Assembly (NCBI GenBank): GCA_021805735.1
Contig: JAJZEE010000040.1
Location: 1-32,580, forward strand
Source of the DNA: Bacillota bacterium
Lineage (GTDB): Bacteria > Bacillota > Bacilli > Alicyclobacillales > SLC66
Direction: 5' to 3'
DNA: 32,580 nucleotides
Shown: positions 534 through 18,323 of the stretch, piece after piece
Layout of the letters: each line of letters begins with the position of its first letter
How positions within the stretch are numbered: position 1 is the stretch's first letter
Program-made: the position numbers and the translations under genes
Notes under the pieces: model-generated
Database searches by the model: none
What the model was told of the DNA's origin: nothing
What the model saw: the letters and a program-made list of their open reading frames with translations, nothing else

Positions 534-3500
534 ATGGATGTTATGGATTCGTCCTTATCGATGGATGTACTCATACCTGAGTTTCTTGTTTTACATCCAA
601 TGGAAAAACAACTTGTCACGCAGTATGCCCCATATTTGGCGGCGCGGGCGCAGAGATTTAGCCATACCTTTTATGAGCATGTGCTGCAAGAAGACGAAGT
701 ATCGTCTGCTCTCACCGGACATGATATGGAATTACTAATGAAAAATATGGTTAGGCACTATCGGAATATTCTGCTGCATGATTACGACGTTTCGATGCGA
801 AATATCCTGCATCATGTGGGTAAAGCGCATCAGCGCATCGGCTTGCCCATTCACTGGCTCGTTGCGACGTACAGCCTCTATGCCATGGATTTAGATGCTG
901 GCATAGAGATTCTCTCGGGCATTTCTGAAGGGGAATCCGCTATCTTACGGCAAGCCATGATTAAACGCTTACAGCTCGATATGTTTTGGTGTCTGGAAGG
1001 GTTCGGCGATGCGGAAAAGGCTCTGATTGCGTGTCGGAATGCGTTTTATCAGGTATTGGCGGAGGCTAATCGACTCTTTTCTGTATCGGTTGACGCTCGC
1101 TTGGAAGACGTGTTCCAAATACTTACGGATAGTATCGCGAATAGAATCGGGTGTATGTGTGTTTGGGCGGGCTTGGTTTCAGAGCAAGAAGGGTCGGTGA
1201 AGGTGCTGGCAGCTTCCGGCGTTGCCGCACATATGACAAACAATCTTCACATTTCAATCGATGCTTCTGTGTCAGAGGGGCAAGGGCCGTTCGGAATCGC
1301 TTTGCGTACAGTGATTCCACAAATCACTGAATTGCCCGTAGGGCTACGACTAGGTCCTTGGGAGACGTTTGTTCGGGAGAACGGGTTGGGAGGCGGAATG
1401 GCGGCGATCCCTTTTCAGACGCGCGACGGGCAAGTGGGAATCATTGGGCTTCATCAAGGTGTCAATTCCTCTTTTCCCATTGGCGTGATGGATTTAATGA
1501 AGGGTCTCGCAATGGATCTCAGCACGTTTTTGGATCGACGACTGGAAGCAATAAAACTTTCCAATCTTCGGAGATACCAGATCATTTTAGCGGAACTCCA
1601 GCAAAAATTTCTGGAATATCCTCCTCCGGAGCGTTTGTTTGAGTCAGTGGTGCAGGCTCTTGTTCAAGGAACCGATGCTTTGGGTGCGTTTGTTGCTGTT
1701 CCTCCGGAGCCAGATGGGCAGTGGCTGCGCATTGTGGCGGTCGACGCTCGTTCTGAAGATCATCAGAGGGCCCTTCGGAGACTCACGCCGTCCATTGATC
1801 CCAACAATCGGCCGTATGGACAACTGGTTGCGGCGCGCGTCTACCGCGAGGGGAATTCAGTCGTTGTGAATCCAGCAGAAGACTCTGATTTACAGATCAT
1901 CCAGAACAGTGATTCGTCTTTTTGGAGCACGAAAAGTGTTGGCGGATGGCCCATTTTTGAAGAAGACAAAAAAAGCCCATCGGCTGTCTTGGTCGTGGCT
2001 GGTCCGGTTGATCGTTATTTCACTTCGGAATTTCGCGTGTTCATGGATCAAGTGATCGCGAGCATTCAGATTGTGCTTGCACAGCACAAAAATCATCAAG
2101 AAATCGTGCGGTTGGGGCTTTGCGATCATCTCACCGGGCTGCCTAACCGCATCTCCTTTGGGAACTACGCGATAAAGGCGATCACTCGCGCCGAACAGGA
2201 GCAAAGGATGCTCGCCATCGGGATCCTTGATTTGGATGGCTTCAGGGAATGGAATGATACGTTTGGCCATCAAGCGGGAGACAGCTTGCTACAGGACTTG
2301 GTGATGCGTCTTCAGGGTGTGATGCGGCCCGAACAGGGATTGGGCAGACTCGGCAGCGACGAGTTTGGACTCTGCGTGTTCATAAATCGACCGGATGATC
2401 TGGTGAACATCTCGAAGACTGTGCTTGAAGCCGTGTCTTCCGTGGACCATCACGTGGGGCCTGTGACGGGTAGTCTGGGATGGGCGATGTATCCGGATGA
2501 TGGGAAGACGTATTCAACGCTGCTGACGTATGCCGATCAGGCACTGTTCGGAGCAAAAGAAGAGGGTCGGAATTCATTTCGAATGTTTGGAGGGAACATT
2601 GCAAAAAAACTTGCAAGGCGTCTTCACGTTCGTCAAACGTTTCCGGCTGCCTTGAAGTCTGGAGAGATTCAATTTTTCTTGCAACCTCAAGTTGACGGGT
2701 TGACCGGCAGAGTTGATGGCGTGGAGATGCTCGCGCGATGGAAAGGACCGAAAGGGTGGATCTCGCCGATTGATTTTATGCCTGAAGTAGAAAGAGATCC
2801 GAACCTCATTCGTTTAATGGGCAACCATGTATTGCGTGAAGCAGGCGCTCTACAAGACAGACTTCGCGATTCGGGCCTTTCTCTACGCGTATCCATGAAC
2901 ATTGGCGCTCGTCACTTTTTGCACCCAGACTTTGTGGCTGATGTGAAGTCCTGTTTTATGGGGCGCCCTGGTAAGGGAGTAGTCATTGAAATTACGGAAA
3001 CCACAGCGCTAATAGACCTGGATCACGCAATGGTTGTCATTCGTGATCTCAAGAAAATGGGCTTCACTGTCTCTCTTGATGACTTTGGCACCGGGTATTC
3101 TTCGCTAAGTCACGCAGCCAATCTCCCCGTAGATGAATTGAAACTGGATCAACACTTTATCAGACGCTTTCGTACCGATCCGAATGTCTTTGCGGTGGCT
3201 GGAGCAATCATCCAATTGGGGGCGCTATCAGGGCGTCTTGTGATTGCGGAAGGGATCGAAGACCAAGAAGACTTGGCGCTTTGGGCCCGAATGGGCGGAT
3301 ATCGACTGCAGGGCTATTTGCTTTCGCCACCCCTGCCAGAGAAGGCGTTTATTGAATGGGCGCAGCAAACGGATCTCTCTCATCCGCGCTTCCCACGGGC
3401 CTATCCCATCGAGGATCTCCCGTTACTCGCGTATGTTTTTATGAACCCAGATGGGTACCAGCACTGTGTCGCCCATCAGTCTTCTGTCTGTTTTTGTCCG

Positions 3501-3698
3501 TTAGAGAGATGGTTTGCGGAGCGCAAAGGTCACTATGGCCATTTGCCGAGTTGGAATTGGGCGTATGACGCGTATTGTGACACTGTTCCCTTGTTTGCAC
3601 AATCGAATCAGGCGCCCGTCGATTGGGGGGTAAGTCTCAAACCATTTAAGGAGGCGTTGAAGATGCTTAGCGCAGAGGTGGACGGGTGTTTGAGATGA
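534..3698 (+). CDS. Globin-coupled GAF-GAF-GGDEF-EAL c-di-GMP protein with CZB-like tail
   Basis: A predicted cytosolic enzyme that makes and/or breaks c-di-GMP. The ATG at 534 follows GAAGGAAGGAAG; an in-frame TTG at 507 precedes that site and is unlikely. Domains in order: a sensor globin (about 12-165) with the GKAHQRIGLP motif, so His99 is the candidate proximal heme ligand; two GAF-like regions (about 180-340 and 365-520); GGDEF (about 525-680) with GSDEF near 606 and RPEQ where the inhibitory RxxD site would be; EAL (about 700-940), where EAL reads EML but the catalytic EITE, DDFGTGYSSL, LKLD and AEGIE motifs are intact; and a tail (about 970-1050) carrying CPLERWF. The phosphodiesterase is probably active; the cyclase is uncertain because of the G-to-S change. 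Oxygen or a related gas is the likely signal. A chain of small ORFs follows directly. Confidence 0.92.
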   Translation: MDVMDSSLSMDVLIPEFLVLHPMEKQLVTQYAPYLAARAQRFSHTFYEHVLQEDEVSSALTGHDMELLMKNMVRHYRNILLHDYDVSMRNILHHVGKAHQRIGLPIHWLVATYSLYAMDLDAGIEILSGISEGESAILRQAMIKRLQLDMFWCLEGFGDAEKALIACRNAFYQVLAEANRLFSVSVDARLEDVFQILTDSIANRIGCMCVWAGLVSEQEGSVKVLAASGVAAHMTNNLHISIDASVSEGQGPFGIALRTVIPQITELPVGLRLGPWETFVRENGLGGGMAAIPFQTRDGQVGIIGLHQGVNSSFPIGVMDLMKGLAMDLSTFLDRRLEAIKLSNLRRYQIILAELQQKFLEYPPPERLFESVVQALVQGTDALGAFVAVPPEPDGQWLRIVAVDARSEDHQRALRRLTPSIDPNNRPYGQLVAARVYREGNSVVVNPAEDSDLQIIQNSDSSFWSTKSVGGWPIFEEDKKSPSAVLVVAGPVDRYFTSEFRVFMDQVIASIQIVLAQHKNHQEIVRLGLCDHLTGLPNRISFGNYAIKAITRAEQEQRMLAIGILDLDGFREWNDTFGHQAGDSLLQDLVMRLQGVMRPEQGLGRLGSDEFGLCVFINRPDDLVNISKTVLEAVSSVDHHVGPVTGSLGWAMYPDDGKTYSTLLTYADQALFGAKEEGRNSFRMFGGNIAKKLARRLHVRQTFPAALKSGEIQFFLQPQVDGLTGRVDGVEMLARWKGPKGWISPIDFMPEVERDPNLIRLMGNHVLREAGALQDRLRDSGLSLRVSMNIGARHFLHPDFVADVKSCFMGRPGKGVVIEITETTALIDLDHAMVVIRDLKKMGFTVSLDDFGTGYSSLSHAANLPVDELKLDQHFIRRFRTDPNVFAVAGAIIQLGALSGRLVIAEGIEDQEDLALWARMGGYRLQGYLLSPPLPEKAFIEWAQQTDLSHPRFPRAYPIEDLPLLAYVFMNPDGYQHCVAHQSSVCFCPLERWFAERKGHYGHLPSWNWAYDAYCDTVPLFAQSNQAPVDWGVSLKPFKEALKMLSAEVDGCLR

Positions 3699-4021: not shown

Positions 4022-4162
4022 TTGCTGCGATCGCTCATGCCCCTGCATACGGAGCAGTCTGACGCCTGGTTGATGGAACGTTGCAACGATCAGGCAGAGG
4101 TCGGTGACGGGAGTGGAATCGGAATGAATGTGATACTGGCAGGGGAACCGTATGACGATTAG
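4022..4162 (+). CDS. Possible 46-residue peptide overlapping the radical SAM start
   Basis: A TTG start sits 7 nt after a good AGGAG (4010-4014). The frame runs through MPLHTEQSDAWLMERC and a Gly-rich middle (GDGSGIGMN) to an acidic end (GEPYDD), overlapping the radical SAM start by 11 nt. That spacing and overlap fit translational coupling. It has one cysteine and no signal peptide. It could be a leader frame, a modified-peptide precursor or chance; conservation of the peptide would separate these. Confidence 0.3.
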   Translation: MLRSLMPLHTEQSDAWLMERCNDQAEVGDGSGIGMNVILAGEPYDD

Positions 4163-5402
4163 CGTCATGTGGAAGACGGTTTCCGAAGCCTGCAATCTGG
4201 CCTGCGATTACTGCTACTACAGCCATTGCGGCGGTCAGCCAAAAGAGATTCGGCGAATCGAATCGCGCGTGCTCGAAAGCTTCATCCGCGACTATATGAA
4301 TCTGTCCGTCGGGTCCGCCTCCTTTGCCTGGCAGGGGGGAGAGCCACTCCTGGCTGGCTTGCCTTTTTTTGAAGAGGTGGTCGCCCTGCAGGCGCAGTAC
4401 GCGCCACCCGGCACGTCCATCGGCAATGCGGTGCAGACCAATGGCACGCTCATCACCGAGGAGTGGGCGCGGTTTTTTAAACAGTACAACTTTCTGGTCG
4501 GCGTGAGCATTGACGGTCCAAAGTCTATTCACGATGCGCGGCGAGTGACGCACTCTGGGGTCGGCTCGTTTGATCGCGTCATGCGCGGCGTGGCCCATCT
4601 CAATCGGCGCCAGGTCGAGTATAATGTTCTCACTGTCATCCATCCCGGCAACGTGCGTCGTGTACCCGAATTGATGGATTTTTATCGGAACAATGACTTC
4701 CGGTGGGTTCAATTCATTCCCTCCATGGCCTTTTCTGCACAGGAGGTCCAGCAGAGTGGATCCTACGAGATCACGCCCGACGAGTACGGGGATTTTCTGT
4801 GCGAGGCGTTTGAATATTGGTACGACGAGGAGTACCCGCGTTTCTCAATCCGCATGTTTGACAGTGTTCTGGCTCTGTACATGAATCGCGATCCGGGATT
4901 TTGCGTGTTGTCGAAGACCTGTGGGCAAACGCTGGTCCTGGAGCAAAACGGCGACGCCTATCCGTGCGATTTCTATATGGATGCGGATTGGCGATTGGGG
5001 AATGTGGGAGAACAGTCCATCGCAGAGCTTCTCGCGAGTCCTGCGATGCGTCGTTTTGCGAGTCTGAAGCCGACACTTCCTGCGGCCTGTCAGACGTGCC
5101 AGTGGAAGAGCGTCTGTCACGGGGGCTGTCCGCGCAACCGCGTATACGGCGGGGGCGGGGAAGTGGCGCCAGATTATTTTTGCGCGGCGTATCAACGTTT
5201 CTACTCGTATGCGGAAGAGCGTATGCAGCGGTTGGCTCTGGGGTTGCGCAAACGTCTTTTCGAAGAACAAAGCGGTCGGGTGCGGGATGTGGGCAGAAAC
5301 GATCTGTGTCCCTGCGGCAGCGGGCACAAGTACAAGCGCTGCTGTCAACCATTAAAAGAAGCTGGATGGAGGCCGGCGTTCCAACCTAAGCATTCCTGCT
5401 AG
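4152..5402 (+). CDS. Radical SAM/SPASM protein, anaerobic sulfatase-maturase type, with SEC-C tail
   Basis: A cytosolic iron-sulfur enzyme of the anaerobic sulfatase-maturating (anSME) group, whose known members oxidise a Cys or Ser of a sulfatase to formylglycine. The radical SAM cluster motif is CNLACDYC (Cys14, 18, 21), followed by the SAM-binding WQGGEPLL and VSIDGPKSIHD. A SPASM region (about 255-345) has the expected cysteines, including YPCDF, CQTCQWKSVCHGGCPRNR and a later CAAY. The C-terminus ends in a SEC-C zinc motif, CPCGSGHKYKRCC (about 383-396), which is an addition to the core family. No sulfatase lies in the window, so the substrate is unknown. Small ORFs just upstream, one overlapping this start, make a peptide substrate possible. 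The family assignment is firm; the substrate is not. Confidence 0.85.
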   Translation: MTISVMWKTVSEACNLACDYCYYSHCGGQPKEIRRIESRVLESFIRDYMNLSVGSASFAWQGGEPLLAGLPFFEEVVALQAQYAPPGTSIGNAVQTNGTLITEEWARFFKQYNFLVGVSIDGPKSIHDARRVTHSGVGSFDRVMRGVAHLNRRQVEYNVLTVIHPGNVRRVPELMDFYRNNDFRWVQFIPSMAFSAQEVQQSGSYEITPDEYGDFLCEAFEYWYDEEYPRFSIRMFDSVLALYMNRDPGFCVLSKTCGQTLVLEQNGDAYPCDFYMDADWRLGNVGEQSIAELLASPAMRRFASLKPTLPAACQTCQWKSVCHGGCPRNRVYGGGGEVAPDYFCAAYQRFYSYAEERMQRLALGLRKRLFEEQSGRVRDVGRNDLCPCGSGHKYKRCCQPLKEAGWRPAFQPKHSC

Positions 5403-5491: not shown

Positions 5492-6361
5492 CTAATGCCT
5501 CTTTCTATAAAAAGATGGAGGTACACCTTCCAGTTTGTGAAAAGCTCGACTGAAAGAATGGATGCTCTGAAAACCGAGTTTTTCCGCGATAGTAGACAAT
5601 GGCAAATTGGTAAACTGTATCATTTGCTTCGCTTTTTCCAGGCGAATCACCATGTGATATTGAATTGGCGTCATCCCGAATGCCTGTTTAAACAGTCTGC
5701 ACAAGTAATATTTGCTTAGATTTGCGAGAGAGGATAGTTCGTCGAGCGTGACGTCCTGTTCCGTGTGATGACTGATATAATTCTTAATGCGGTCCAACTG
5801 TTCCAAATTGGGTAATAGGTGGGGGTTGCTCAGCCAATGGTTTTCTCTCAGTAATTGAGTCCACAATTGAATGAAGAGTCCTTTGGCGGCAGTTTCGTAA
5901 AAGGGGAATTTTCTGTCGAATTCAAGGATGATATCGTAGATCAGTTTTTCAATGATCACCGGTTTATTCAGACGAATATGATTCGGCAACGGATTCATCA
6001 TGTATTGGGTTACATCTTCTCGGAACAGTTGTGTTTCCTGTACTGTCATCGCTTCAAGCGGTTTATAGGAAACTTTCACCACTGGGCTGTCAGGCAAATA
6101 GTAGAGGTCGAAATGAAGATGAGGTTGATATAACGGCTTGTTGTTCTGCAGATAAATGGAATGTGTCTCCATGGGCTTGAACAGGAATATATCCCCCGGT
6201 ATACCATGATACACACGGTCCTCTACCTTCACTTCAATTTCACCATCCTTCACATACAGCAATTCATAATCAAAAATGACGCGTTCAGAAATGTTCACCG
6301 GAGGATAGATGACACTATCCCAAGCAACGCGGATATATGGCGACAGCGTGTTCAAATCCAC
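5492..6361 (-). CDS. AraC-family regulator of the adjacent sugar operon
   Basis: A cytosolic transcription factor: an N-terminal cupin-like sensor (about 10-150, with GIPGDIFLFKPMETHSIY) and a C-terminal pair of helix-turn-helix units (about 190-290, ending SFSRAFHKLEGVPPSFYRKRH). The start is a choice. The ATG at 6367 is only 1 nt from AGGAGG, whereas the in-frame GTG at 6361 is 7 nt away, so I prefer the GTG. It is transcribed divergently from the GH172/GH183 operon, the usual place for a local sugar-responsive activator. The ligand is inferred to be a product of that operon's enzymes. Confidence 0.9.
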   Translation of the reverse strand: MDLNTLSPYIRVAWDSVIYPPVNISERVIFDYELLYVKDGEIEVKVEDRVYHGIPGDIFLFKPMETHSIYLQNNKPLYQPHLHFDLYYLPDSPVVKVSYKPLEAMTVQETQLFREDVTQYMMNPLPNHIRLNKPVIIEKLIYDIILEFDRKFPFYETAAKGLFIQLWTQLLRENHWLSNPHLLPNLEQLDRIKNYISHHTEQDVTLDELSSLANLSKYYLCRLFKQAFGMTPIQYHMVIRLEKAKQMIQFTNLPLSTIAEKLGFQSIHSFSRAFHKLEGVPPSFYRKRH

Positions 6362-6641
6362 AGCCATTCCTCCTGACTTTAATCTGATATAAAACTGTAC
6401 CAGAAGAGACGCTGTGATGAAAGCAATTTTGGTTAAATCTTCGTCTGCTTATGCTAAATACTTTATTCTGAAAAGGCTTACAATGCAGATATAAAAGGCA
6501 TCGATGATGTGATTCTTATACTCTCAAAGTGGAGGTGGCGGGATAAGCGAATGCGTGATTCGGAGTTTCTGGAAAACGGGTGACCAAAGGACTGATGATG
6601 GGGGTTTTGAAGCGGCGTAAATAGAGGAGGGGGGCTTCAGT
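6362..6641. promoter_or_regulatory. Divergent control region between AraC gene and sugar operon
   Basis: This gap carries the leaders of both transcription units and presumably the AraC sites. It is AT-rich over 6415-6500. Promoter-like pieces include TTGGTT (6429) near TATGCTAAAT (6450), and TATAAA near 6492, but none has ideal spacing and I do not pick one. The long leader (about 150 nt) is GC-richer and includes a run of short ATG frames. Confidence 0.4.
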
Positions 6642-7910
6642 ATGAAGAGAGTGAAAATGAGTTTTAAATCAGCGGCGCCTGTGGTTTTTGCACTGGCTAT
6701 GTCATTCGGATCTGTATTTCCCGGAGTAAATGCTCAAGCAAGTTCCGCGAAAGAGACGATCAATCTATGGATGCTCAACGCCGCGTCCACACCTGCCATT
6801 GAACAGTTGGCCAAGGAGTGGAATGTCCTGCATCCGAACATCCAGGTGAAAGTAACCGCGGTGACCAACGATACGAACACCTACTTTGCGAAGGTGGCTA
6901 CAGCAATTGCATCAGGTGCGGGACCGGACATCATTTACATGTCCGCTGCAGACTATCAACAATACGTATCCAGCGGCATTGCGTATCCCGTCGATCGGTG
7001 GCTGGACAAGAACAAGAGTGATTACTATCCGAATGTACTGAAATCTGTTGAAACTAACGGTCATTTTTACGCGTTCCCCAAGACCCTTCAACTCATGGTT
7101 CTCTATTATAACAAAGCAATGTTTGCCCAATCACACCTGCAACCTCCCAAGACGTGGTCGCAAATGCTTTCTGACGCCAAGAAGCTCACAACGAAAAATA
7201 GGTACGGATTGCAGATAGAGACTCATGAGGGTGGGTATCAAAATTTTGAGTGGTATCCGTGGGTCTGGATGCAAGGTGGAAATATCATCTCGGACAACGG
7301 CAAGAAGGTGGCGGTCAACCAAGCGACGGCGAACGCCCTGCAACTCGAGCGTAACATTATGCAATCCGGTGTGGCGCCAAGAAACCTCGCCACAGGCGGA
7401 TTCGATCTGACGTCGTTCGGACAGAACAAGGTTGCCATGGCGATAAGCGGTACGTGGGCCATCCCATTTTTGGCACAGAATTATCCGAAAGTGAAATATG
7501 GAATCGTGCCCTACCCAGTTCCGAAATTGGGTATGAAATCATCCAGCGATGCAGGTGGTTGGATGTGGATGATCAATTCTCGAGGCAAGGATCCCATCGC
7601 CGCCGGCAACGTGATGAATTGGATGACGAATGAGAACCCCAACCGCTACACTGCTTGGCTGAAAGCTGAAGACAACTGGCCGCCACGTAAATCTGTGGTC
7701 ACAGCCATGAAAAATTTCTACCAGACCGGTGTGAACAAGGTGGTAACTGATCAGGTTCTGCCGGTGGCCGGCATGGAACCCGAGTGGAACGCGGGAGTCG
7801 TCAAGGCGGTTGGAGATGCCATTCAGGCGGCTGAATTTACGAATGAACCGATCAGTCAAATCATGCAGAAGTTGAAACAGGCATGTCAAAACGCACTGAA
7901 CAACGGCTGA
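6642..7910 (+). CDS. Sugar ABC transporter solute-binding protein (family 1)
   Basis: The extracellular binding protein of a carbohydrate importer, first gene of the operon. A purine-rich GAGGAGGGGGG precedes the ATG. Residues 1-32 form a Sec signal peptide (basic MKRVKMSFK, hydrophobic core, then GVNAQA as a probable signal peptidase I site). There is no lipobox cysteine, unlike most Gram-positive binding proteins. The mature part shows family 1 features: INLWMLNA, AKEWNVLHPNIQVKV, ASGAGPDIIYM, a WVWMQGG region and a C-terminal MQKLKQACQNALN. Its length (422) is normal. Neighbours (two permeases, GH172, GH183, isomerase, kinase) suggest the ligand is a D-arabinofuranose oligosaccharide; that is inference. 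Confidence 0.92.
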   Translation: MKRVKMSFKSAAPVVFALAMSFGSVFPGVNAQASSAKETINLWMLNAASTPAIEQLAKEWNVLHPNIQVKVTAVTNDTNTYFAKVATAIASGAGPDIIYMSAADYQQYVSSGIAYPVDRWLDKNKSDYYPNVLKSVETNGHFYAFPKTLQLMVLYYNKAMFAQSHLQPPKTWSQMLSDAKKLTTKNRYGLQIETHEGGYQNFEWYPWVWMQGGNIISDNGKKVAVNQATANALQLERNIMQSGVAPRNLATGGFDLTSFGQNKVAMAISGTWAIPFLAQNYPKVKYGIVPYPVPKLGMKSSSDAGGWMWMINSRGKDPIAAGNVMNWMTNENPNRYTAWLKAEDNWPPRKSVVTAMKNFYQTGVNKVVTDQVLPVAGMEPEWNAGVVKAVGDAIQAAEFTNEPISQIMQKLKQACQNALNNG

Positions 7911-7930
7911 GTTGCTCACTTTGAGTTCTG

Positions 7931-7960
7931 TGAAGGGCGCCTGTCGTTGTGCGCCCTTCA
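7931..7960 (+). promoter_or_regulatory. Intercistronic stem-loop after the binding-protein gene
   Basis: TGAAGGGCGC and GCGCCCTTCA form a perfect 10-bp stem with a 10-nt loop, 20 nt after the binding-protein stop and just before the permease ribosome site. No T-run follows, so readthrough is expected. Such structures in malE-malF-type gaps protect the upstream mRNA and raise binding protein over permease; that role here is inferred. Confidence 0.7.
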
Positions 7961-7981
7961 CGTTGGAGGAGGTTCCCGGCA

Positions 7982-8923
7982 ATGGCGTGGTTCAAACTTG
8001 GGCTGGCAGGGAGTGACTCCCCACCCGTCCAACGAGAGAATACGAGAGGGTTGAAGCGCAGGACACGAGAGGCTTTGGCCGCGTACGCTTTGCTGGCTCC
8101 AGCTGTTTTGGGTTTGGTCACTTTCGTGGTGTTTCCCATGATATATGCCTTTTGGGTGAGCCTGCACCGATGGAACGCTTTGTCTTTACAGATGCCCTGG
8201 GTTGGCTTGCAAAATTATGTTTCATCGTTCCAGGATACAGATTGGCTGCAGGCACTTGAGAGAACGTTTCTGTATACCGTGATATTTGTGCCAAGTTTAT
8301 TTGTCATGTCTCTGATTCTAGCCCTTATTGTCAAGTCCGTTCCGCATTTGAGCGGCGTATTTCGAACCATGTTCTTCCTCCCCGTCGTAATGTCTCCGGC
8401 TATATCTGGAATTATATGGACACTGGTATACAGTGATCGGAATGGCCTCATCAACCGATACTTGGAGAAATTCGGGATTGATCCTGTGCATTGGCTCAGT
8501 TCCACTCATGTCGCCCTCGTCTCAGTTGTCATTGTAAGTGTTTGGCTGGGTATGGGTTACTTTATGATCATTTTTCTTGCGGGATTGCAGGACATTCCGA
8601 AGCAATACTACGAGGCGGCAAAAATCGACGGTGCAAGCAGTTGGCAGTCTTTCTGGTTCATCACACTCCCGAACTTGAGGCACACCAACATCTTTGTGCT
8701 CATCGTGTCCATCATTGGCTCGTTTCAAGTGTTTGACCAAATCATGTTGATGACGGGTGGAGGTCCCGCAAACTCCACAACGCTCGTTGTGCTGTATATC
8801 TTTCAACAGTCTTTTGAGCAGTACAATTTCGGTTACGCAGCAGCATTATCATTCATATTATTCATGATCATTCTGGTGTTTACCCTTCTGCAAGTGAAAT
8901 TCCTGCGAATCGATGAAGAGTAG
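7982..8923 (+). CDS. Sugar ABC transporter permease 1 (MalF/UgpA type)
   Basis: One of two membrane subunits of the importer. The ATG at 7982 follows GGAGGAGG by 9 nt; an upstream GTG at 7949 would lie inside the stem-loop and is rejected. About six membrane helices are visible, beginning with LAAYALLAPAVLGLVTFVVF. The cytoplasmic EAA loop reads YYEAAKIDGASSWQSFWFIT, which docks the ATPase. The C-terminal NSTTLVVLYIFQQSF segment is typical of the MalF-like partner. No ATPase gene lies in the operon, so a shared MsmX-like ATPase encoded elsewhere is expected. Confidence 0.93.
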   Translation: MAWFKLGLAGSDSPPVQRENTRGLKRRTREALAAYALLAPAVLGLVTFVVFPMIYAFWVSLHRWNALSLQMPWVGLQNYVSSFQDTDWLQALERTFLYTVIFVPSLFVMSLILALIVKSVPHLSGVFRTMFFLPVVMSPAISGIIWTLVYSDRNGLINRYLEKFGIDPVHWLSSTHVALVSVVIVSVWLGMGYFMIIFLAGLQDIPKQYYEAAKIDGASSWQSFWFITLPNLRHTNIFVLIVSIIGSFQVFDQIMLMTGGGPANSTTLVVLYIFQQSFEQYNFGYAAALSFILFMIILVFTLLQVKFLRIDEE

Positions 8924-8939
8924 GAGGTGCACGGCGACG

Positions 8940-9749
8940 ATGAAACGGAATTACTGGCTCTACATCCCGGCGATTCTTTTGTCCGTCAGCACGATATTTC
9001 CAGTCCTTTGGAACATCATGGGGGGCTTCAAGAACGCGAAGGAAGCGTCGAATTTCTCTGGTTCTCTGTTTCCCAAGCATCCCACTCTGAATAACTACAT
9101 TGAAATAATAAATTCCACGCCGTTTTTGCATTATATGTGGAACACCTTGGTATACGCGGGAAGCGTAACCATTGTGGCGTTGCTCATCGCAGCGATGGCG
9201 GGATATGCTCTTGCCCGCTTGGATTTTCCGGGCCGCCGCGCGATCCTCATCGGTATTCTCTCCACTATGATGATTCCGTTTTCGGTCATCATGATCCCTC
9301 TGTTTTTGATTGTAAAGTCCTTCGGCTGGGTGGACTCCCTGTGGGGGTTGATTGTTCCCAGTTTGTTCGGGGCCTTCAGTGTTTTTCTGTGCCGACAGTT
9401 TTTTATGGGACTTCCTCGTGAGCTGGAGGATGCTGGTAAGATAGACGGGCTGTCAATACTGGGAATTTTCTTCAGAATTGCGCTCCCGCTGTCGCGGCCG
9501 ATTCTCTATGCGCTTGCGATTTTCATCTTTCTGGCCAACTGGAACAGTTATCTGTGGCCTTTAATTCTCCTGCAGTCACAGAAAAACTGGGTGATATCGC
9601 TGGGTATTTCCTCTTTTTCGACGGACCACAGCACGCAATGGAATCTGGTCATGGCTGGAACCACGCTCGCCATTGTTCCAACCCTGATCCTATTCGCCCT
9701 TTTCCAGAGGAAACTGGTGGAAGGGATAAAGATGACAGGCGGCAAGTGA
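8940..9749 (+). CDS. Sugar ABC transporter permease 2 (MalG/UgpE type)
   Basis: The second membrane subunit. I chose the ATG at 8940: AGGAGG lies at 8922-8927, which gives a rather long spacer of 12 nt, while an upstream in-frame ATG at 8913 would overlap permease 1 and precedes that ribosome site. The protein has about six helices. Its EAA-loop equivalent is LEDAGKIDGLSILGIFFRIA, followed by LPLSRPILYALAIFIFLANW, and it ends in the standard VEGIKMTGGK of MalG-like permeases. It lies 16 bp after permease 1 in the same operon. Confidence 0.93.
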   Translation: MKRNYWLYIPAILLSVSTIFPVLWNIMGGFKNAKEASNFSGSLFPKHPTLNNYIEIINSTPFLHYMWNTLVYAGSVTIVALLIAAMAGYALARLDFPGRRAILIGILSTMMIPFSVIMIPLFLIVKSFGWVDSLWGLIVPSLFGAFSVFLCRQFFMGLPRELEDAGKIDGLSILGIFFRIALPLSRPILYALAIFIFLANWNSYLWPLILLQSQKNWVISLGISSFSTDHSTQWNLVMAGTTLAIVPTLILFALFQRKLVEGIKMTGGK

Positions 9750-9846
9750 GTCTGGTTCCGGTTTTGCGAGGAGGTGAATGTTGCAATCTACGGGTGACGA
9801 TGGACCAGTTTGAAATCACAAGCATCGTTGGAGGAGATCGATCAGC

Positions 9847-10938
9847 ATGACGGGGACATCACTGAGAAACTTGTGCCATGTTAGAAACCACAGGAGCAAG
9901 AGGGAGTCATCCTACGATAAAACGGGAGGGAACAAAGACTACAAAGAACTGATGCCCGGTCAGGCGATGGATATTTGCAACATCGCCGGGTCCGGATGCA
10001 TTACGCACATCTGGATCACCATGGCTTCGAAGGAACGAGAAATGGAACAGGCGCTCTATCGGAAAGTGGTGCTCCGCATGTTCTGGGATGGCGAGAAAAA
10101 CCCAAGCGTGCAAGCGCCAATCGGCGATTTCTTCGGCATGGGGCACGGCATCACGAAAAATTACTGGTCAGCCCCTCTGGCGATGAGCCCGGAGAACGGG
10201 CAGGCGTTAAATTCGTTCTTTGCGATGCCGTTTGGTTTTTCCGCCCGAATTCAAATCGAGTGCAACGCGGAGAGGCCTATCAAACTGTATTTTTACGTCG
10301 ACTATGAACTGTATGATATAGAGTCGGAGACTCCGCTCCGTTTTCATGCGATTTGGCGCAGGGAGATTACGAAGGGCATTCCTGACAACATCTCCAATGC
10401 CCTATATGAGTTTGGCGGCGAAAACAGAACGGGCGACCAGAACTATGTGCTGCTTGATGCGGTGGGAAAAGGGCATTATGTAGGGTGCAATCTTAACATT
10501 CACAACCTGCGTGCCACAAGGGAATGGAATTGGTATGGCGAGGGGGACGACATGATCTTTATCGATGGAGAATCCTGGCCTCCCTCTCTCCATGGAACGG
10601 GGATGGAAGATTACTTTAACACCGCCTGGTGTCCGCAGCAGGAATATTGCTCTCCGTATCACGGCATCGTGCTCGGAGGCGGGCCGAACTGGTCTGGAAA
10701 GATAAGTGTCTACCGATTCCATATCGAAGATCCGATCATGTTTGAAAAGTCCATTCGAGTGACGATCGAGCACGGCCACAACAACCACCGAAGTGATGAC
10801 TACTCCAGCACCGCCTACTGGTATCAAACGGAACCGCATAAGGACCATCCACTGATTCTGCCGGTGGACCAGCGCTTGCCGTTACCGGATATACTGCCTT
10901 TCAACACCCAGGATTTCAATGCTTGCTTTGACAATTAA
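9847..10938 (+). CDS. DUF2961 / GH172 glycoside hydrolase, intracellular
   Basis: A furanosidase-family enzyme. GH172 (formerly DUF2961) includes alpha-D-fructofuranosidase/difructose-anhydride enzymes and exo-D-arabinofuranosidases acting on D-arabinan. Family marks are SSYDKTGGNKDY near the N-terminus, GCITHIWITM, GDFFGMGHG, and GTGMEDYFNTAWCPQQEY, whose Glu254 lies in the conserved acidic motif of the family. No signal peptide is present, so it should act on imported oligosaccharides. GGAGGAG precedes the ATG by about 11 nt. Length (363) is normal. Placed after the permeases and before a GH183 protein, an arabinose-5-phosphate isomerase and a sugar kinase, it is best read as an exo-D-arabinofuranosidase; fructofuranosidase is the main alternative. 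Confidence 0.88.
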   Translation: MTGTSLRNLCHVRNHRSKRESSYDKTGGNKDYKELMPGQAMDICNIAGSGCITHIWITMASKEREMEQALYRKVVLRMFWDGEKNPSVQAPIGDFFGMGHGITKNYWSAPLAMSPENGQALNSFFAMPFGFSARIQIECNAERPIKLYFYVDYELYDIESETPLRFHAIWRREITKGIPDNISNALYEFGGENRTGDQNYVLLDAVGKGHYVGCNLNIHNLRATREWNWYGEGDDMIFIDGESWPPSLHGTGMEDYFNTAWCPQQEYCSPYHGIVLGGGPNWSGKISVYRFHIEDPIMFEKSIRVTIEHGHNNHRSDDYSSTAYWYQTEPHKDHPLILPVDQRLPLPDILPFNTQDFNACFDN

Positions 10939-10949
10939 AGGGGGTGGGC

Positions 10950-12080
10950 ATGATTTTGCTGCAAAAATTGCTTGTCGGTTCGCTGATCTCCGTCCTGAGT
11001 GTCGCTTCCTTTGCAGATTCCGACAGCGTGTTGTCCGTCAGGTTGACTGCGGGCAAACACGTTCCATTCGTGTTAAAAAAAGTGGTCGACGTGCAAAAAA
11101 TCGCGCAATTGACCGGGGCAGACTCGATCAACAAGACCGAGCGGTACGATGTGTATGGAGCAGATCTCGGTTCGATGTTTAATCAGGGAGATAAAACGTA
11201 CCTCGTTTTCGGGGACACGTTCGGCCTTCGTTCCCCCGGCATGACGGGCGGCGGGGGTCAGGACTGGAGATCCAACACGATGGCGTTTACTACTACCAGG
11301 AACCCTTCCCATGGGTTGAAGTTTGCCGGATGGATCACTGACGGTCGGGGCGATGCGAAAGAATTGTTGCCGTCTTTGAAGGTGGACAATGTGGAGATCA
11401 CAAAGATCCCGACGAACGGGGTGAGCGTGGGGAAAACGTTGTATCTCTATTACATGTCGGTCAGACATTTCGGTCCTCCCGGCGTGTGGAGCGCCAATTA
11501 TTCGGGGATCGCCAAATCGGTGGACAGCGGTCAAACATGGCAGTTCATCAAAGGTGCCAAATGGCCGGGCAACAGTAATTTCATCCAAGTCAGCGCCTAC
11601 AAAGTGAAGGTCAACGACCACCTGACGGAAATTTACTTTTGGGGCATTCCCGCAGGGCGGTTTGGCGGCGTGAAACTGATGCGGGTGAATGCAAGAGACA
11701 TCCAGGACATTGCCAAATATCGATATTTTGCCGGAACGAATGAAAACGGGCAACCGCTCTGGTCGCATCGGATGAGTCGCGCGGTGAAGATCGTGAACAA
11801 TCCTGTCGGGGAACTGTCGGTCATCTGGGATCCGTATCTCCAGCGGTGGATCATGATGTATCTGCAGGGGCGGGGCAATGTGGTCATGCGCGAAGGAATC
11901 ACGGAGTGGGGACCTTGGGGAAAGGCGATCACCGTGGCGACTCAGGAGCACTACCCAGGGCTTTACGGCCCCTTTATGAACCCGAGGTACATGGATAAAA
12001 ATGGTGAGTACATCTATTTCACCCTGTCAATGTGGGGTCCCTACAACGTCTTTTGGATGAAGGCAAAACTTGTGAAGTGA
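10950..12080 (+). CDS. Exported DUF4185 / GH183 protein, putative endo-D-arabinanase
   Basis: DUF4185 includes the mycobacterial-type endo-D-arabinanases classed as GH183. The ATG at 10950 follows AAAGGGGGTG; a GTG at 10944 falls inside that site. Residues 1-22 form a Sec signal peptide (LLQKLLVGSLISVLSVASFA), so the protein should be secreted. Family features include a beta-propeller-like pattern: YDVYGADLGSMFNQGDKTYL, VFGDTFGL, WRSNTMAFTT, SVDSGQTWQF, and a C-terminal PRYMDKNGEYIYFTLSMWGP. It starts 11 bp after the GH172 gene. The inferred job is to cut D-arabinan outside the cell into oligosaccharides for the ABC importer. Substrate is inferred from family and context. Confidence 0.82.
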   Translation: MILLQKLLVGSLISVLSVASFADSDSVLSVRLTAGKHVPFVLKKVVDVQKIAQLTGADSINKTERYDVYGADLGSMFNQGDKTYLVFGDTFGLRSPGMTGGGGQDWRSNTMAFTTTRNPSHGLKFAGWITDGRGDAKELLPSLKVDNVEITKIPTNGVSVGKTLYLYYMSVRHFGPPGVWSANYSGIAKSVDSGQTWQFIKGAKWPGNSNFIQVSAYKVKVNDHLTEIYFWGIPAGRFGGVKLMRVNARDIQDIAKYRYFAGTNENGQPLWSHRMSRAVKIVNNPVGELSVIWDPYLQRWIMMYLQGRGNVVMREGITEWGPWGKAITVATQEHYPGLYGPFMNPRYMDKNGEYIYFTLSMWGPYNVFWMKAKLVK

Positions 12081-12101
12081 TTCAGTTGGGGGAATCGCTC
12101 T

Positions 12102-12713
12102 ATGATTAAATCCATGGCTCGCGAGATTCTTGACTCACAACTTCAGGCAGTAACGAAAGTGACAGAGGTGTTGGATGATCACTTTGTCGGCGTCATCGAA
12201 CTGTTGGAATCGTGCACTGGCAAAGTGATCGTCTCAGGACTTGGGAAATCAGGCCACATTGGCAGAAAAATTGCGGCCACTTTGGCGTCGACAGGAACGC
12301 CCGCATTCTTTGTTCATGCGGCCGAGGCGCTCCACGGAGACTTGGGTATGATCAGTTCTTCAGATCTTCTGATCGCTATCTCCAACTCTGGAACATCTCC
12401 TGAGATTGTGTCCATGGCAAGACATGCCCGGTCATTTGCCGGAATGGTCATTGCCATGACATCCAATCCCTCATCGGAATTGGCACAGATGGCTGATCGG
12501 TTACTATTGTTGCCAAAAGTATCGGAATCAGATCTCTGGGGATTGGCGCCAACAAATTCTACCACAATAATGCTGGTGTTGGGTGACATCGTTGCAATCA
12601 CGTTGTCTCGGCGTAAAGGGTTCTCGCAGGAACAGTTTTTTCGCTCACATCCAGGAGGGGCGTTAGGGCAAACATTATTGAGTTTAGGCCTCATAGAGAA
12701 TGCAAAAAAATGA
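12102..12713 (+). CDS. kdsD: KdsD/GutQ-like D-arabinose-5-phosphate isomerase, SIS domain only
   Basis: A cytosolic SIS-domain sugar-phosphate isomerase expected to interconvert D-arabinose 5-phosphate and D-ribulose 5-phosphate. The match to KdsD/GutQ is strong along its length: GLGKSGHIGRKIAATLASTG, FFVHAAEALHGDLGMI, ISNSGTSPEIV, LAPTNSTTIMLVLGD, and SHPGGALGQ. At 203 residues it stops where KdsD enters its two CBS domains. GGGGGAA precedes the ATG by about 9 nt. In Gram-negatives this enzyme feeds Kdo synthesis; a Gram-positive has no Kdo, and the sugar-operon setting points to catabolism. It ends in a run of seven A residues followed by TGA, treated as a separate feature. Confidence 0.88.
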   Translation: MIKSMAREILDSQLQAVTKVTEVLDDHFVGVIELLESCTGKVIVSGLGKSGHIGRKIAATLASTGTPAFFVHAAEALHGDLGMISSSDLLIAISNSGTSPEIVSMARHARSFAGMVIAMTSNPSSELAQMADRLLLLPKVSESDLWGLAPTNSTTIMLVLGDIVAITLSRRKGFSQEQFFRSHPGGALGQTLLSLGLIENAKK

Positions 12714-12793
12714 GCCTTTTGGGAAAGACAATGGTGCGTTCCGATGACATGTCACCCTATGCCAATGGGCTCGTCAGAGTGGGGGTTCCGTAG
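12710..12793 (+). CDS. 27-codon frame after the isomerase, possible frameshift extension or coupled peptide
   Basis: The ATG overlaps the isomerase TGA as ATGA and directly follows A7. In the -1 frame the isomerase would continue through LLGKTMVRSDDMSP to a TAG. That stretch vaguely recalls the linker into the CBS region of KdsD (LLRVNDIM-type). It may be a remnant of lost CBS domains, a slippage product or chance. Product and function are unknown. Confidence 0.2.
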   Translation: MSLLGKTMVRSDDMSPYANGLVRVGVP

Positions 12794-12796
12794 TGG

Positions 12797-13726
12797 ATGC
12801 TTTATAATCCGATTGCCGTGGTGGGGAGTCTGATTGCGGATATCGTAATACAGGTGCCGAGATGGCCCAGTCCGGGCGAGACCATGTTCGGAGAGCAACT
12901 TGACCTGTTCCCTGGCGGGAAGGGTCTGAATCAGGCCATTGCGATCGCCCGTCAGGGTGTTGGTGTGACGTGTGTTGGTCAAGTGGGTGACGATGTATTT
13001 GGTCATACGCTCAGGGAAGCCATTCGGGCCGAGGAACTATCTGACGAACTGGTCTTCACAGCAGTCGCTGAGGGCAGTGGGGTGGGAATCCCATTTGTAT
13101 TTCCAAATGGGGAGAACGCCATCGTGTTGCTGCCCAGAGCAAATATGGCACTGAGTGCAGACCATATTTTGCAGGCGCGCCCGGCGCTTGAGTCGGCAAG
13201 GATTCTGCTGTTGCAGTTGGAGATACCGGATCACGCAGCAAGGTTGGCGGCGAGCATAGTTGCTGAACGAGGTGGAACGGTGATTCTGGACCCGGCTCCA
13301 TTTCGATCGTTGGACGATGAGTTAATGAGGCATGTGACGATACTCACGCCGAATCAAACGGAACTGGAGATGATGGTTGGGAACAGGGTCGGCTCGACAG
13401 ACGATATAAGGGCGGCATCCAGGAGGGTTCTGCAGCGGTATCCGTCACTACAAACGCTGATCGCTACCATGGGCGATCAGGGAGCCATGATTTCTACCAC
13501 AGACTCCAGTGTCTGGATTGCTGCTCACAAGGTAAACGCCATCGATCCCACTGCAGCAGGTGATGCGTTCAATGGTGTGCTGGCGACGAGATTGCTAAAG
13601 GGTGAGTCGCTGGAAGCGGCGAGCCGATACGCGTGTGTGGCAGGGGCGCTGGCAGCCACAAGATTGGGCGCTGTGCCATCTCTGCCAACGTTCTCGGAGG
13701 TAGAGAGCGCCTACACGAAAATGTGA
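12797..13726 (+). CDS. PfkB/ribokinase-family sugar kinase, putative D-arabinose 5-kinase
   Basis: A cytosolic carbohydrate kinase of the ribokinase branch. Visible marks are the N-terminal sugar-binding GSLIADIV and FPGGKGLNQAIAIARQG (PfkB signature 1), TPNQTELEMM, the ATP-region TMGDQGAMI, and signature 2 DPTAAGDAFNG, with Asp256 as the catalytic base. Length (309) matches ribokinase. The ribosome site is weak (AGTGGGGG about 12 nt before the ATG). Ribokinase is known to act slowly on D-arabinose at the 5-OH. Last in an operon with a D-arabinose-5-phosphate isomerase, this protein probably supplies that isomerase's substrate. Ribose or another pentose is the alternative. Confidence 0.87.
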   Translation: MLYNPIAVVGSLIADIVIQVPRWPSPGETMFGEQLDLFPGGKGLNQAIAIARQGVGVTCVGQVGDDVFGHTLREAIRAEELSDELVFTAVAEGSGVGIPFVFPNGENAIVLLPRANMALSADHILQARPALESARILLLQLEIPDHAARLAASIVAERGGTVILDPAPFRSLDDELMRHVTILTPNQTELEMMVGNRVGSTDDIRAASRRVLQRYPSLQTLIATMGDQGAMISTTDSSVWIAAHKVNAIDPTAAGDAFNGVLATRLLKGESLEAASRYACVAGALAATRLGAVPSLPTFSEVESAYTKM

Positions 13727-14054
13727 GTTGGATGCCACGGTGAAGGCACATTGGGGAACAATCATGTTTCAGAACCCAATAAAAGAATAAATACCCTCCC
13801 GAACGAAGAAAACTGCAAAATAGATGACCTGCAGAATTGATTGTCTCAGGGCATCAGGGAAGGTTGGCGATTTTTCGGGATAGCACCTTCTGATTACCCG
13901 AGTTACAATTTTCTACCTCGAGCTGGCTTGGCCTTGGTTCACGTAAGAGAGGGGGTGTCGTCACCCCTCGTGTTTCTCCATATATGACACCGATAAACGC
14001 AGAAAATTAGACTACTTGCGCGCTTCTGGAGAATCTGATACACCATAAACAGAG
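13727..14054 (+). other. Gap with a GC hairpin after the sugar operon
   Basis: No gene is visible. GGGGTG (13952-13957) and CACCCC (13962-13967) form a 6-bp stem with a TCGT tetraloop, followed by a moderately T-rich TCGTGTTTCTCC. It could terminate the sugar operon weakly or sit in the leader of the next gene. The rest is AT-rich and should contain the promoter of the diguanylate cyclase, which I cannot place with confidence. Confidence 0.4.
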
Positions 14055-15365: not shown

Positions 15366-15469
15366 CTTGTAAAAGGATCAGACACGAATACATCCAAACG
15401 CGCGAGCAGATGCGCGGCCAAACAGGATGAGCCTTTACTCCAATAACCGAATGGAGTGTGGAGTGTAGA

Positions 15470-16585
15470 GTGAGTGAATATGTAAAACCTTCTGTGGCCG
15501 GTCTATTTGTGGGTTGCGGCGGGCTGGACTTTGGATTTCAGGCAACAGGTTACGAGATTGGATGGGCCAATGAATGGTCGGCAGATGCAGCCAAATCCTA
15601 CGCGCAACTGATTGGGCATGATGTTGTCGTCGGCGATATTTGGGATCATCTTGAGCAAATACCGCAAGTTGAAGTCATTGTGGGCGGGCCGCCTTGTCAG
15701 GCATTTTCCTTGGTTGGGAAGCGGCTGGAAGACGATCCTCGCGCCAAGCTGGTATTCGCTTTTGAGCAAGCTATTGAACGTGTAATGCCGCAAGCGTTCG
15801 TCATGGAGAATGTTCCGGGACTTATGGCGTCAAAAATCGATGGCCAACGACTCCCCATTCACCTCGCCGAACAATTCACACGATTAGGATATGAAGTTAC
15901 GATTCTAAGACTCGTTGCCACCGATTTCTTCGTGCCACAGAAACGACAGCGGGTCCTGATGGTGGGGCATCGTTTTCCACGGAGGGTGTTCAGTCTTATT
16001 GACTCGGTTACGTTCGCCCAGTTACTGGGTGACTCGGAGTTGCGGAAGCCGATTTCTGTGGCTGAAGCCCTTGATGACTTGCCTGCTCCCTTGGCCAAGG
16101 GGAGTAAAGCATCCGCCGCCTATTTGACGGCGCCCCATTCCGCCTACTCACGACTCATGCGCAGATCGGGTCAAACTGCCGTCACGCTGCAAGCGATGCC
16201 GACTATGTCATTGCTGGACCGTGAATTTGTCAGACACATTCCACCGGGCGGAAACTATACGAATATACCGGACTCGGTGGCCACCAAACGCATTTTATCG
16301 TTCAAGGCCACAGGCGGCAGAACAACCACTTATGGCCGACTCCATCCGGACAGGCCGGCGTACACCATCAACACTTATTTCAATCGTCCAAATGTAGGCG
16401 CAAATTATCACCATCAAGAAGAACGTCTCATCACCGTTCGAGAGGCTTTGCGGTTGCAGTCGTTCCCTGATCATTTCAGCCCCTATTACAGCAACCAGCG
16501 AAGCTTGCACATGCAGATTGGAAACGCTGTGCCGCCTCTGATGGCGCAAGCTCTCGCCGAGTCTTTAAGAGGGTTGTTTGTATGA
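15470..16585 (+). CDS. DNA (cytosine-5) methyltransferase
   Basis: A Dcm-type modification enzyme. Motif I is GLFVGCGGLDFGFQATG, motif IV is GGPPCQAFSLVGKR with the catalytic Cys76, then MENVPGL (motif VI), FVPQKRQRVLMVG (motif VIII), and GNAVPPLMAQALA (motif X) at the end. The target-recognition region is about 200-280. I place the start at GTG 15470, 6 nt after GGAG; a GTG at 15458 is in frame but precedes that site. The stop overlaps the next methyltransferase as ATGA, so the two are co-translated. The recognition sequence cannot be read from the protein. Confidence 0.93.
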   Translation: MSEYVKPSVAGLFVGCGGLDFGFQATGYEIGWANEWSADAAKSYAQLIGHDVVVGDIWDHLEQIPQVEVIVGGPPCQAFSLVGKRLEDDPRAKLVFAFEQAIERVMPQAFVMENVPGLMASKIDGQRLPIHLAEQFTRLGYEVTILRLVATDFFVPQKRQRVLMVGHRFPRRVFSLIDSVTFAQLLGDSELRKPISVAEALDDLPAPLAKGSKASAAYLTAPHSAYSRLMRRSGQTAVTLQAMPTMSLLDREFVRHIPPGGNYTNIPDSVATKRILSFKATGGRTTTYGRLHPDRPAYTINTYFNRPNVGANYHHQEERLITVREALRLQSFPDHFSPYYSNQRSLHMQIGNAVPPLMAQALAESLRGLFV

Positions 16586-17922: not shown

Positions 17923-18094
17923 ACCACTACTTCCATCCTATTCATCCCCAGAAAACACCCACTTCCACCCAGTATTCAAGGCTGCCGCGGAAGAGGTTCT
18001 TGTTGCCAGGAGAATTACATCCGGGAAATTCAGTTGCAGGGTGTCGATTTGTTGGGTTCGCAACCGACGTAGGGGAACATTGCCGGCGGATTGA
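17915..18094 (+). pseudogene. Truncated third gene of the restriction-modification operon
   Basis: An ATG preceded by GGCGGAGGT overlaps the methyltransferase stop, the layout expected for the next gene of the operon. Only about 28 residues ([20 protein letters not shown] and a helical FKAAAEEVL) look native. After about 18000 the DNA instead matches, in another frame, the tail of a UxaA-family dehydratase, and this frame stops at 18094. The missing gene was most likely the restriction endonuclease, but the remaining part is too short to name a family. Confidence 0.5.
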
Positions 18095-18275
18095 ACTTTA
18101 TGGACTCTTCTTCTGCCGCCGGAGAATTTATTACACTGATGGCCGCTGCGGGCGCAGTCGTGCACTTTTTCCCACTGGTCAAGGGAACATCGTGGGCAAT
18201 CCGATTGTTCCAGTCATTAAGATTACGGCCAATCCACTTATAGCAAGCACGATGTCTGAGCACATCGACTTTGAT
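18010..18275 (+). pseudogene. UxaA-family (altronate/galactarate dehydratase) remnant, 5' part
   Basis: The frame reads [20 protein letters not shown], then TAG (18070-18072) where the family has Pro, then GNIAGG. After an apparent in-frame deletion it continues [13 protein letters not shown] and [10 protein letters not shown]. Near 18171 one base is missing (TTCCCACT where TTCACCACT is expected), and the family sequence continues one frame over as [20 protein letters not shown] and MSEHIDFD. It is interrupted there by the IS element. The intact enzyme would dehydrate a hexonate or hexarate. The gene is dead by at least four lesions. Confidence 0.8.
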
Positions 18276-18284
18276 CCGGCTTTA

Positions 18285-18322
18285 GCGCCGCAAACCTCTT
18301 GCTTCAGGGAGAGGTTAGGCGC
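18285..18322. repeat. IS left-end imperfect palindrome
   Basis: GCGCC pairs with GGCGC, and AACCTCT with AGAGGTT, around an 11-nt loop. This is the subterminal hairpin that TnpA recognises in IS200/IS605 elements. It lies 9 bp inside the left boundary and ends next to the tnpA stop codon. Confidence 0.8.
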
Positions 18323-18323
18323 G

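Follow-up and report, generated by a model that had tools for sequence, protein, structure and literature searches.

A 32,580-nucleotide contig of a Bacillota bacterium of the class Bacilli (GenBank assembly GCA_021805735.1, contig JAJZEE010000040.1; the whole stretch is called the window below) carries an operon that probably serves the catabolism of D-arabinan or alpha-D-arabino-oligosaccharides, a reading to which a probability of about 0.84 was assigned from gene families, conserved residues and gene company. Seven genes run on the plus strand between positions 6642 and 13726 with gaps of 38, -11, 97, 11, 21 and 83 bases, and a gene for an AraC-family regulator is divergent from them (Table 1). 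In order, they encode the substrate-binding protein (SBP) and two permeases of a sugar ATP-binding cassette (ABC) importer, a glycoside hydrolase of family GH172 (DUF2961), one of family GH183 (DUF4185), an isomerase with a SIS domain only and a ribokinase-like kinase. A secreted GH183 protein, an ABC importer, a cytosolic GH172 protein, an isomerase and a kinase were thus found together, with secretion judged by eye.

In the proposed pathway, the secreted GH183 endo-enzyme would cut the polymer, the SBP and permeases would take up the fragments using a MalK-type ATPase from elsewhere in the genome, and the cytosolic GH172 protein would free D-arabinose. The kinase would then add a phosphate at C5 of this sugar, and from the resulting D-arabinose 5-phosphate the SIS protein would make D-ribulose 5-phosphate, which would feed the pentose phosphate pathway; the AraC protein probably induces the operon. 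This order of cutting, import, trimming, phosphorylation and isomerization had been proposed in a preliminary description of the window and is supported by the linkage of GH172 genes to the SIS-kinase pair, the exclusion between this pair and fucose isomerase, a signature in the kinase and the conserved catalytic residues. Beyond the window, the balance leans towards a further natural bacterial route for D-arabinose, in which some 'ribokinases' would really be D-arabinose 5-kinases working with SIS-only isomerases. The pair would replace fucose isomerase and FGGY kinase in D-arabinan operons and would serve free D-arabinose together with a permease of the major facilitator superfamily (MFS), and its kinases carry the same Gly98 that engineers introduced.

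Gene linkage and the fucose isomerase route

Linkage was surveyed in 398 genomes of the window's class, the window's own genome (G000) included. The SIS query matched 13 genomes, four of them with longer frames (G335 and G084 examined as sequences, G053 and G123 by length) and nine with SIS-only genes. The SIS-only gene adjoins a ribokinase-like gene in eight of the nine (G000, G038, G311, G329, G380, G174, G159 and G246, the SIS-kinase genomes), a GH172 gene being placed between the two in G038, and has no kinase neighbour in G175. GH172 genes were found in 21 of the 398 genomes, and five genomes (G000, G038, G311, G329 and G380) hold both a GH172 gene and the SIS-kinase pair. With the window's genome excluded, GH172 is present in 4/7 SIS-kinase genomes versus 20/397 (p = 1.5e-4, a value that treats the genomes as independent and thereby overstates the significance).

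Window-type GH172 genes number four in the class, the one in the window and three others with scores of at least 639 bits to it, and all four share a locus with a SIS-kinase pair; the remaining GH172 loci of the class score at most 170.2 bits to the window protein or do not match. In the window, G038 and G329, GH172 is separated from the pair by between a few hundred and about 2,000 bases; in G311 the separation is about 6.5 kb, and the importer lies in between. In G038, GH183 and importer genes adjoin the locus, and the G329 locus comprises an AraC-like gene and genes for two SBPs, two permeases, GH172, SIS, kinase and MalK, with no GH183 gene. GH183 accompanies window-type GH172 in the window, G038, G697, G689 and G1055. 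A tree built from 35 GH172 sequences places the SIS-adjacent GH172 of G380 and the second GH172 genes of G038 and G311 in the clade of ExoMA1, for which exo-alpha-D-arabinofuranosidase activity is proven (PMC10509167); the second G038 protein scores 474 bits to 8IC8. The locus is patchy, as if gained, because G369, the single same-genus genome among those listed, has neither a GH183 nor a SIS gene.

The SIS-kinase pairs of the three genomes with no GH172 gene (G174, G159 and G246) lie with LacI-like and MFS genes (loci L058, L059 and L060). Only the MFS protein of G174 was scanned among the three and showed MFS_1 alone in Pfam; in our reading, the MFS genes resemble a fucose permease. These are possible loci for the utilization of free D-arabinose, hidden behind the name ribokinase.

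A second survey covered 296 genomes of the phylum of G780, an actinobacterial draft genome, using the window GH172 as query at E 1e-30. Matches were obtained in 17, of which seven were of the window type (at least 456 bits, about 57-62% identity); the other ten (36-49% identity) were left uncounted, and two of these (G790 and G1006) were examined. The seven were combined with G697 and G689 of the window's own phylum to give nine outside genomes with GH172 proteins 57-65% identical to that of the window. Families were confirmed by Pfam for G975 and G986 and by similarity for the remaining outside genomes. Fucose isomerase (PF07881) is present in six of the nine, at most about 6 kb from GH172 in five of these and about 22 kb away in G689. 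An FGGY kinase gene adjoins the fucose isomerase gene in G975, G1028 and G780, and adjoins GH172 in G986. No fucose isomerase match was found in G1055, G1007 and G986, two of these three loci being on contigs 11 and 8 kb long.

Among the eight SIS-kinase genomes, the window's genome included, fucose isomerase (searched as PF07881 only) was found in none. Fucose isomerase with FGGY kinase, and kinase with SIS isomerase, would both turn D-arabinose into D-ribulose 5-phosphate. Because one pair swaps for the other, D-arabinose would be the common intermediate.

Residues of the kinase, isomerase and hydrolases

The window kinase contains a PfkB domain (Pfam, 1.1e-51) and is closest to ribokinase in NCBIfam (276.3 bits versus 72.9 bits for fructokinase). 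The eight kinases paired with SIS genes were aligned with 15 unpaired kinases (12 from the eight SIS-kinase genomes plus those of Vibrio, Thermus and E. coli) and numbered by E. coli RbsK from MG1655, with I13 and G97 of the window kinase at positions 14 and 98. Position 98 is Gly in all eight paired kinases, and Ala (12) or Gly (3) in the unpaired ones. Position 14 is Met in seven paired kinases and Ile in that of the window, compared with Asn (12) or Ser (3) in the unpaired set, so that a residue other than Asn or Ser was found in 8/8 versus 0/15. Fisher p values for the two positions were 3.4e-4 and 2.0e-6, the paired kinases being related and the counts not independent. Position 14 was spotted in the sequences, and position 98 was picked from PMC9604405 after the columns had been displayed.

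Seven substrate contacts are listed for RbsK (N14, D16, G42, K43, N46, E143 and D255; PMC9604405), of which N14 is replaced by Ile in the window kinase and the other six are kept. The A98G exchange in E. coli ribokinase raised kcat on D-arabinose 15-fold (Zayats and colleagues, PMC9604405). According to the same source, Ala98 and two neighbours were suggested to clash with the 2'-OH of arabinose, and Asn14 bonded ribose, not arabinose, in simulations. Gly98 is common to that mutant and the paired kinases, engineered there and natural here, and Asn14 has additionally been lost in the paired kinases.

The GH183 protein matches DUF4185 (PF13810) at 7.2e-89 and 298.5 bits, against a cut-off of 39.5, and has a signal peptide with no lipobox (by eye). 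Its likely start is the ATG at 10950, preceded by a Shine-Dalgarno-like stretch; a GTG at 10944 is disfavoured, although D74 and D91 are counted from it. Residues 53-376 align with the Microbacterium endo-D-arabinanase EndoMA1 (6.3e-60), and Asp at the columns of EndoMA1 D33 and D51 is kept in the window protein and in the five other GH183 proteins compared. EndoMA1 D51 was mutated (D51N) as a catalytic residue in a crystal study (PMC10509167), and D33 would be its partner by analogy with the D170/D188 pair of DgGH4185b (PMC10115798). Activity of the family on arabinogalactan and lipoarabinomannan has been demonstrated (PMC10509167, PMC10115798).

Two weaker proteins, from G311 and G565, also have Asp at both columns, the G311 alignment being loose. 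The G311 candidate (46 bits, positions 96-265) was not counted as GH183, the whole protein showing FIMAH alone in Pfam. A search of genome contigs with the GH183 query gave one locus, in an actinobacterial metagenome-assembled genome, with neither a GH172 nor a SIS gene within 17.7 kb. Seven GH183 matches, six of them above the cut-off, were obtained in G780.

The GH172 protein matches DUF2961 (PF11175) at 4.9e-84 and 282 bits, against a cut-off of 27, and has no signal peptide (by eye). Its E232 and E254 correspond to the catalytic glutamates E233 and E254 reported for DgGH172c (PMC10115798), and the adjacent Asp is kept too. For GH172 and for GH183, the window gene is the single match in the 3.76-Mb draft genome.

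The isomerase, 203 amino acids long, contains a SIS domain (Pfam, 2.2e-27) and no CBS domain, and its nearest NCBIfam families are GutQ (202.6 bits) and KdsD (202.3 bits), both scored over the SIS part. K59, H88, E111 and the HPGG motif, which we take to be the catalytic positions of KdsD, are kept. It thus resembles E. coli KdsD and GutQ in its SIS domain and these residues, and differs from them in the lack of CBS domains, in its catabolic setting and in a genome where no KDO-8-P synthase is above the cut-off. No secretion signal was found in the SIS protein or the kinase.

Counter-evidence and alternatives

Several observations weigh against a D-arabinan operon with a D-arabinose kinase. 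The window kinase lies below the ribokinase cut-off (TIGR02152, 276.3 versus 299.65), and the SIS protein lies below the full-length GutQ and KdsD cut-offs and that of TIGR00393 (KpsF; 186.2 versus 203.7), a match that spans positions 1-154 of 268, the CBS domains being missing from the protein. Gly98 is also present in three of the 15 unpaired kinases, the KM of the A98G mutant for D-arabinose is still 310 mM (PMC9604405), and Pro at position 100 of the window kinase occurs in no other row. Position 14 is an ambiguous sign of a D-arabinose kinase: an Asn-to-Ala exchange in Arabidopsis ribokinase had little effect on ribose activity (cited in PMC9604405), selection of E. coli on 2-deoxyribose yielded N14D and N14S (Guzman and colleagues, PMC6452873), and when E. 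coli was evolved on D-arabinose, it relied on fuc enzymes and AraB instead of RbsK (PMC6452873). The seven other paired kinases cluster (82/88 in one tree and 55/81 in another), and the signature may have come from one event. The window kinase falls outside the seven in both trees, which suggests a separate origin; this was not established, as a single clade of eight was not rejected (p-AU 0.069).

The hydrolases and the importer add to this side. The preliminary description had called for a search for co-occurrence of DUF2961, DUF4185 and SIS-only KdsD genes; GH172 and the SIS-kinase pair do recur together, in the five class genomes named above, but GH183 is strong in just two of the eight SIS-kinase genomes. 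ExoMA1-clade GH172 genes are found in G369, G271, G172 and G171, all with no SIS match. The genes named in the preliminary description are open frames with families confirmed by Pfam, and the SBP and both permeases of its sugar importer are present; the ATPase gene is absent from the operon, and one good match to a MalK-type ATPase was obtained elsewhere in the genome. An ATPase encoded apart from the importer genes is usual for such importers. Neither GH116 nor GH4 had a Pfam match among 27 window frames in a scan confined to the window, and the word 'complete' overstated a locus that lacks both an ATPase and a GH116-type beta-arabinofuranosidase.

The alternative that survives best, though doubtful, retains the chemistry and replaces actinobacterial walls as food by pilin or O-antigen alpha-D-arabinofuranosyl (alpha-D-Araf) glycans or by free oligosaccharides. 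Glycans with alpha-D-Araf are described for Pseudomonas aeruginosa PA7 pilin (PMC10115798) and Stenotrophomonas O-antigen (PMC8605356), and G329 and G380 have GH172, SIS and kinase genes with a GH183 match nowhere in either genome. The window, however, encodes a secreted protein of a family active on arabinogalactan and lipoarabinomannan.

A further alternative, in which the kinase acts as a normal ribokinase or on 2-deoxyribose, the SIS protein serves another sugar phosphate and GH183 and GH172 are passengers, is unlikely. The six retained RbsK contacts and the selection of position 14 changes on 2-deoxyribose (PMC6452873) would fit such a kinase, as would the finding of no kinase above the ribokinase cut-off in the window's genome; Gly98 in 8/8 paired kinases, the recurrence of the SIS-kinase pair with GH172 and the absence of PF07881 from the SIS-kinase genomes argue against it.

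An operon for alpha-fructans or difructose anhydrides, with GH172 acting on alpha-D-fructofuranosides and the kinase being a fructokinase, is very improbable. Its model is the alphaFFase1 operon of Bifidobacterium dentium, with LacI, GH32 and ABC genes, whose enzyme cleaves both alpha-D-fructofuranosyl and alpha-D-Araf linkages (PMC8605356). Because alphaFFase1 takes both sugars, the sequence of a GH172 protein cannot by itself settle arabinose versus fructose, and gene company settles more. The window GH172 is 46% identical to DgGH172c and 44% to alphaFFase1. GH172 genes at 43-45% identity lie near GH32 on Arthrobacter and Rhizobium phaseoli plasmids, and, as a point against the preferred reading, GH172 at 43-51% identity is accompanied by GH32 or has no pentose genes in the surrounding 9 kb. 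In the tree, alphaFFase1 joins the two GH32-linked proteins of these plasmids (100/99), apart from the other group (97/97), in which the window protein stands with DgGH172c, itself on a long branch. Eleven positions split 13 window-type from the three fructan-type proteins. DgGH172c sides with the window at R165, Y230, T259 and P263, the last three at most nine residues from a catalytic Glu, where alphaFFase1 and the two GH32-linked proteins differ; at R315 it sides with the fructan type, which counts against the preferred reading, and at six of the eleven it agrees with neither. Moreover, GH32 was not among the 27 window frames scanned, the kinase scores 276 bits as ribokinase versus 73 as fructokinase, and the GH183 and KdsD-like genes would have no role in such an operon.

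On plasmids of Rhizobium and S. meliloti (L011 and L012), a GH172 gene about 50% identical to that of the window adjoins genes for LacI and an ABC importer, and no pentose gene is annotated within 9 kb.

There is next to no chance that the isomerase belongs to metabolism of 3-deoxy-D-manno-octulosonate (KDO), capsule or sorbitol and stands in the operon by accident. With two SIS proteins as queries, 202 and 236 plasmid records were matched, and six annotated regions and one unannotated region were examined among the matches listed. KpsF/GutQ genes lie near lipopolysaccharide (LPS), export or sorbitol genes in five of the six annotated regions, and near pdxA and a four-carbon acid sugar kinase gene in the sixth; at 320-332 amino acids they are longer than the window protein, and no ribokinase-like gene is named beside them in the six. 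The isomerase is not for LPS, because KDO-8-P synthase (TIGR01362) is above the cut-off in 0/8 SIS-kinase genomes, and the SIS gene adjoins a kinase gene in 8/9 class genomes with a SIS-only match. Weaker TIGR01362 matches in seven of the eight, and likewise in Bacillus subtilis, are probably DAHP synthases.

Known systems, significance and the rest of the window

The closest system in print is the Gram-positive D-arabinan locus of Microbacterium arabinogalactanolyticum (EndoMA/ExoMA; Shimokawa and colleagues, PMC10509167), which likewise has secreted GH183, an SBP_bac_8 ABC importer, cytosolic GH172 and a downstream isomerase and kinase. The SBPs of both loci have 4QRZ as the nearest solved structure by sequence. 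It differs in having four GH183 genes, a cytosolic GH116 exo-beta-enzyme and a GH172 protein in another clade of our tree; the families of its isomerase and kinase are unnamed in the text of PMC10509167, the main text of which does not contain the words Bacillota or Firmicutes. PUL42 of Dysgonomonas gadei (Al-Jourani and colleagues, PMC10115798) also directs GH172 and GH183 against arabinogalactan, but belongs to the Bacteroidota and includes a fucose isomerase. The alphaFFase1 operon of B. dentium (PMC8605356) shares a regulator, an ABC importer and an intracellular GH172, and differs in its GH32 partner, its alpha-fructofuranoside substrates and its GH172 clade. The ribose operon of Thermotoga maritima is also counted among the closest systems; the passage on it in PMC3750489 specifies neither gene families nor any GH172, GH183 or KdsD-like gene. 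The characterized D-arabinan degraders in these sources are one member of the Bacteroidota and one actinobacterium (PMC10115798, PMC10509167).

D-Arabinan operons in Gram-positives are already known; what would be new, judging from the sequence comparisons, is the different bacterial group and a last-step pair different from the fucose isomerase route. No paper on a D-arabinan operon with a KdsD/ribokinase-type pair was found in a literature search with most subscription journals outside its coverage. A phosphoarabinoisomerase was reportedly described long ago in Propionibacterium, and the chemistry itself may therefore be long known.

D-Arabinan is a hallmark of mycobacterial walls. If the interpretation is correct, a further bacterial group can live on it by a route hidden from annotation, because family scores make the kinases look like ribokinases and the isomerases like enzymes of the KDO pathway. 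Genomes could then be sorted immediately by kinase positions 14 and 98 together with SIS adjacency. The kinase would also be a naturally evolved tool for the synthesis of arabinose 5-phosphate and arabinoside drugs, a use in which the KM of the engineered ribokinase is still 310 mM (PMC9604405).

Table 1. Coordinates of the operon, its regulator gene and adjoining sites in the window.
Feature	Positions	Strand	Evidence
AraC-family regulator, probable local activator	5492..6367	-	Pfam AraC type HTH_18, 2.4e-22
AraC-SBP intergenic region, probable control region	6368..6641	none	
Substrate-binding protein, sugar ABC importer	6642..7910	+	SBP_bac_8 2.6e-34 (Pfam)
ABC importer permease 1	7949..8923	+	BPD_transp_1 (Pfam)
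ABC importer permease 2	8913..9749	+	BPD_transp_1 (Pfam)
GH172 (DUF2961), putative intracellular exo-alpha-D-arabinofuranosidase	9847..10938	+	catalytic E232, E254
GH183 (DUF4185), secreted, putative endo-D-arabinanase	10950..12080	+	Asp pair D74, D91
SIS-only KpsF/KdsD-type protein, putative D-arabinose-5-phosphate isomerase	12102..12713	+	
Ribokinase-like PfkB kinase, putative D-arabinose 5-kinase	12797..13726	+	I13, G97
Terminator-like hairpin 3' of operon, weak	13951..13968	+	

Promoter and terminator scans were at about shuffle level, with 12 terminator-like sites in the region versus 8.9 +/- 3.3 in shuffles. Within the AraC-SBP gap, no promoter-like site was listed in the promoter scan and no direct or inverted repeats were found; an Rfam search of the window gave no match. 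The SBP has a signal peptide (by eye) with no lipobox cysteine, which is odd for a monoderm; its G038 counterpart has LAGC.

Upstream of the operon, positions 4152-5402 encode an anaerobic sulfatase maturase with a C-terminal SEC-C motif, no sulfatase being among the 27 window frames scanned, and positions 507-3698 encode a Protoglobin-GAF-GGDEF-EAL protein, likely a gas-sensing c-di-GMP enzyme. Downstream, a C5-cytosine methylase gene followed by an Eco57I-type methylase gene (15458-17922) forms a probable restriction-modification pair. At 18000-19965, a fragment whose match to the C-terminus of galactarate/altronate dehydratase covers just 43 positions precedes at once an IS605-type TnpB (Cas12f1-like) gene and is perhaps a gene broken by the IS605-type insertion.

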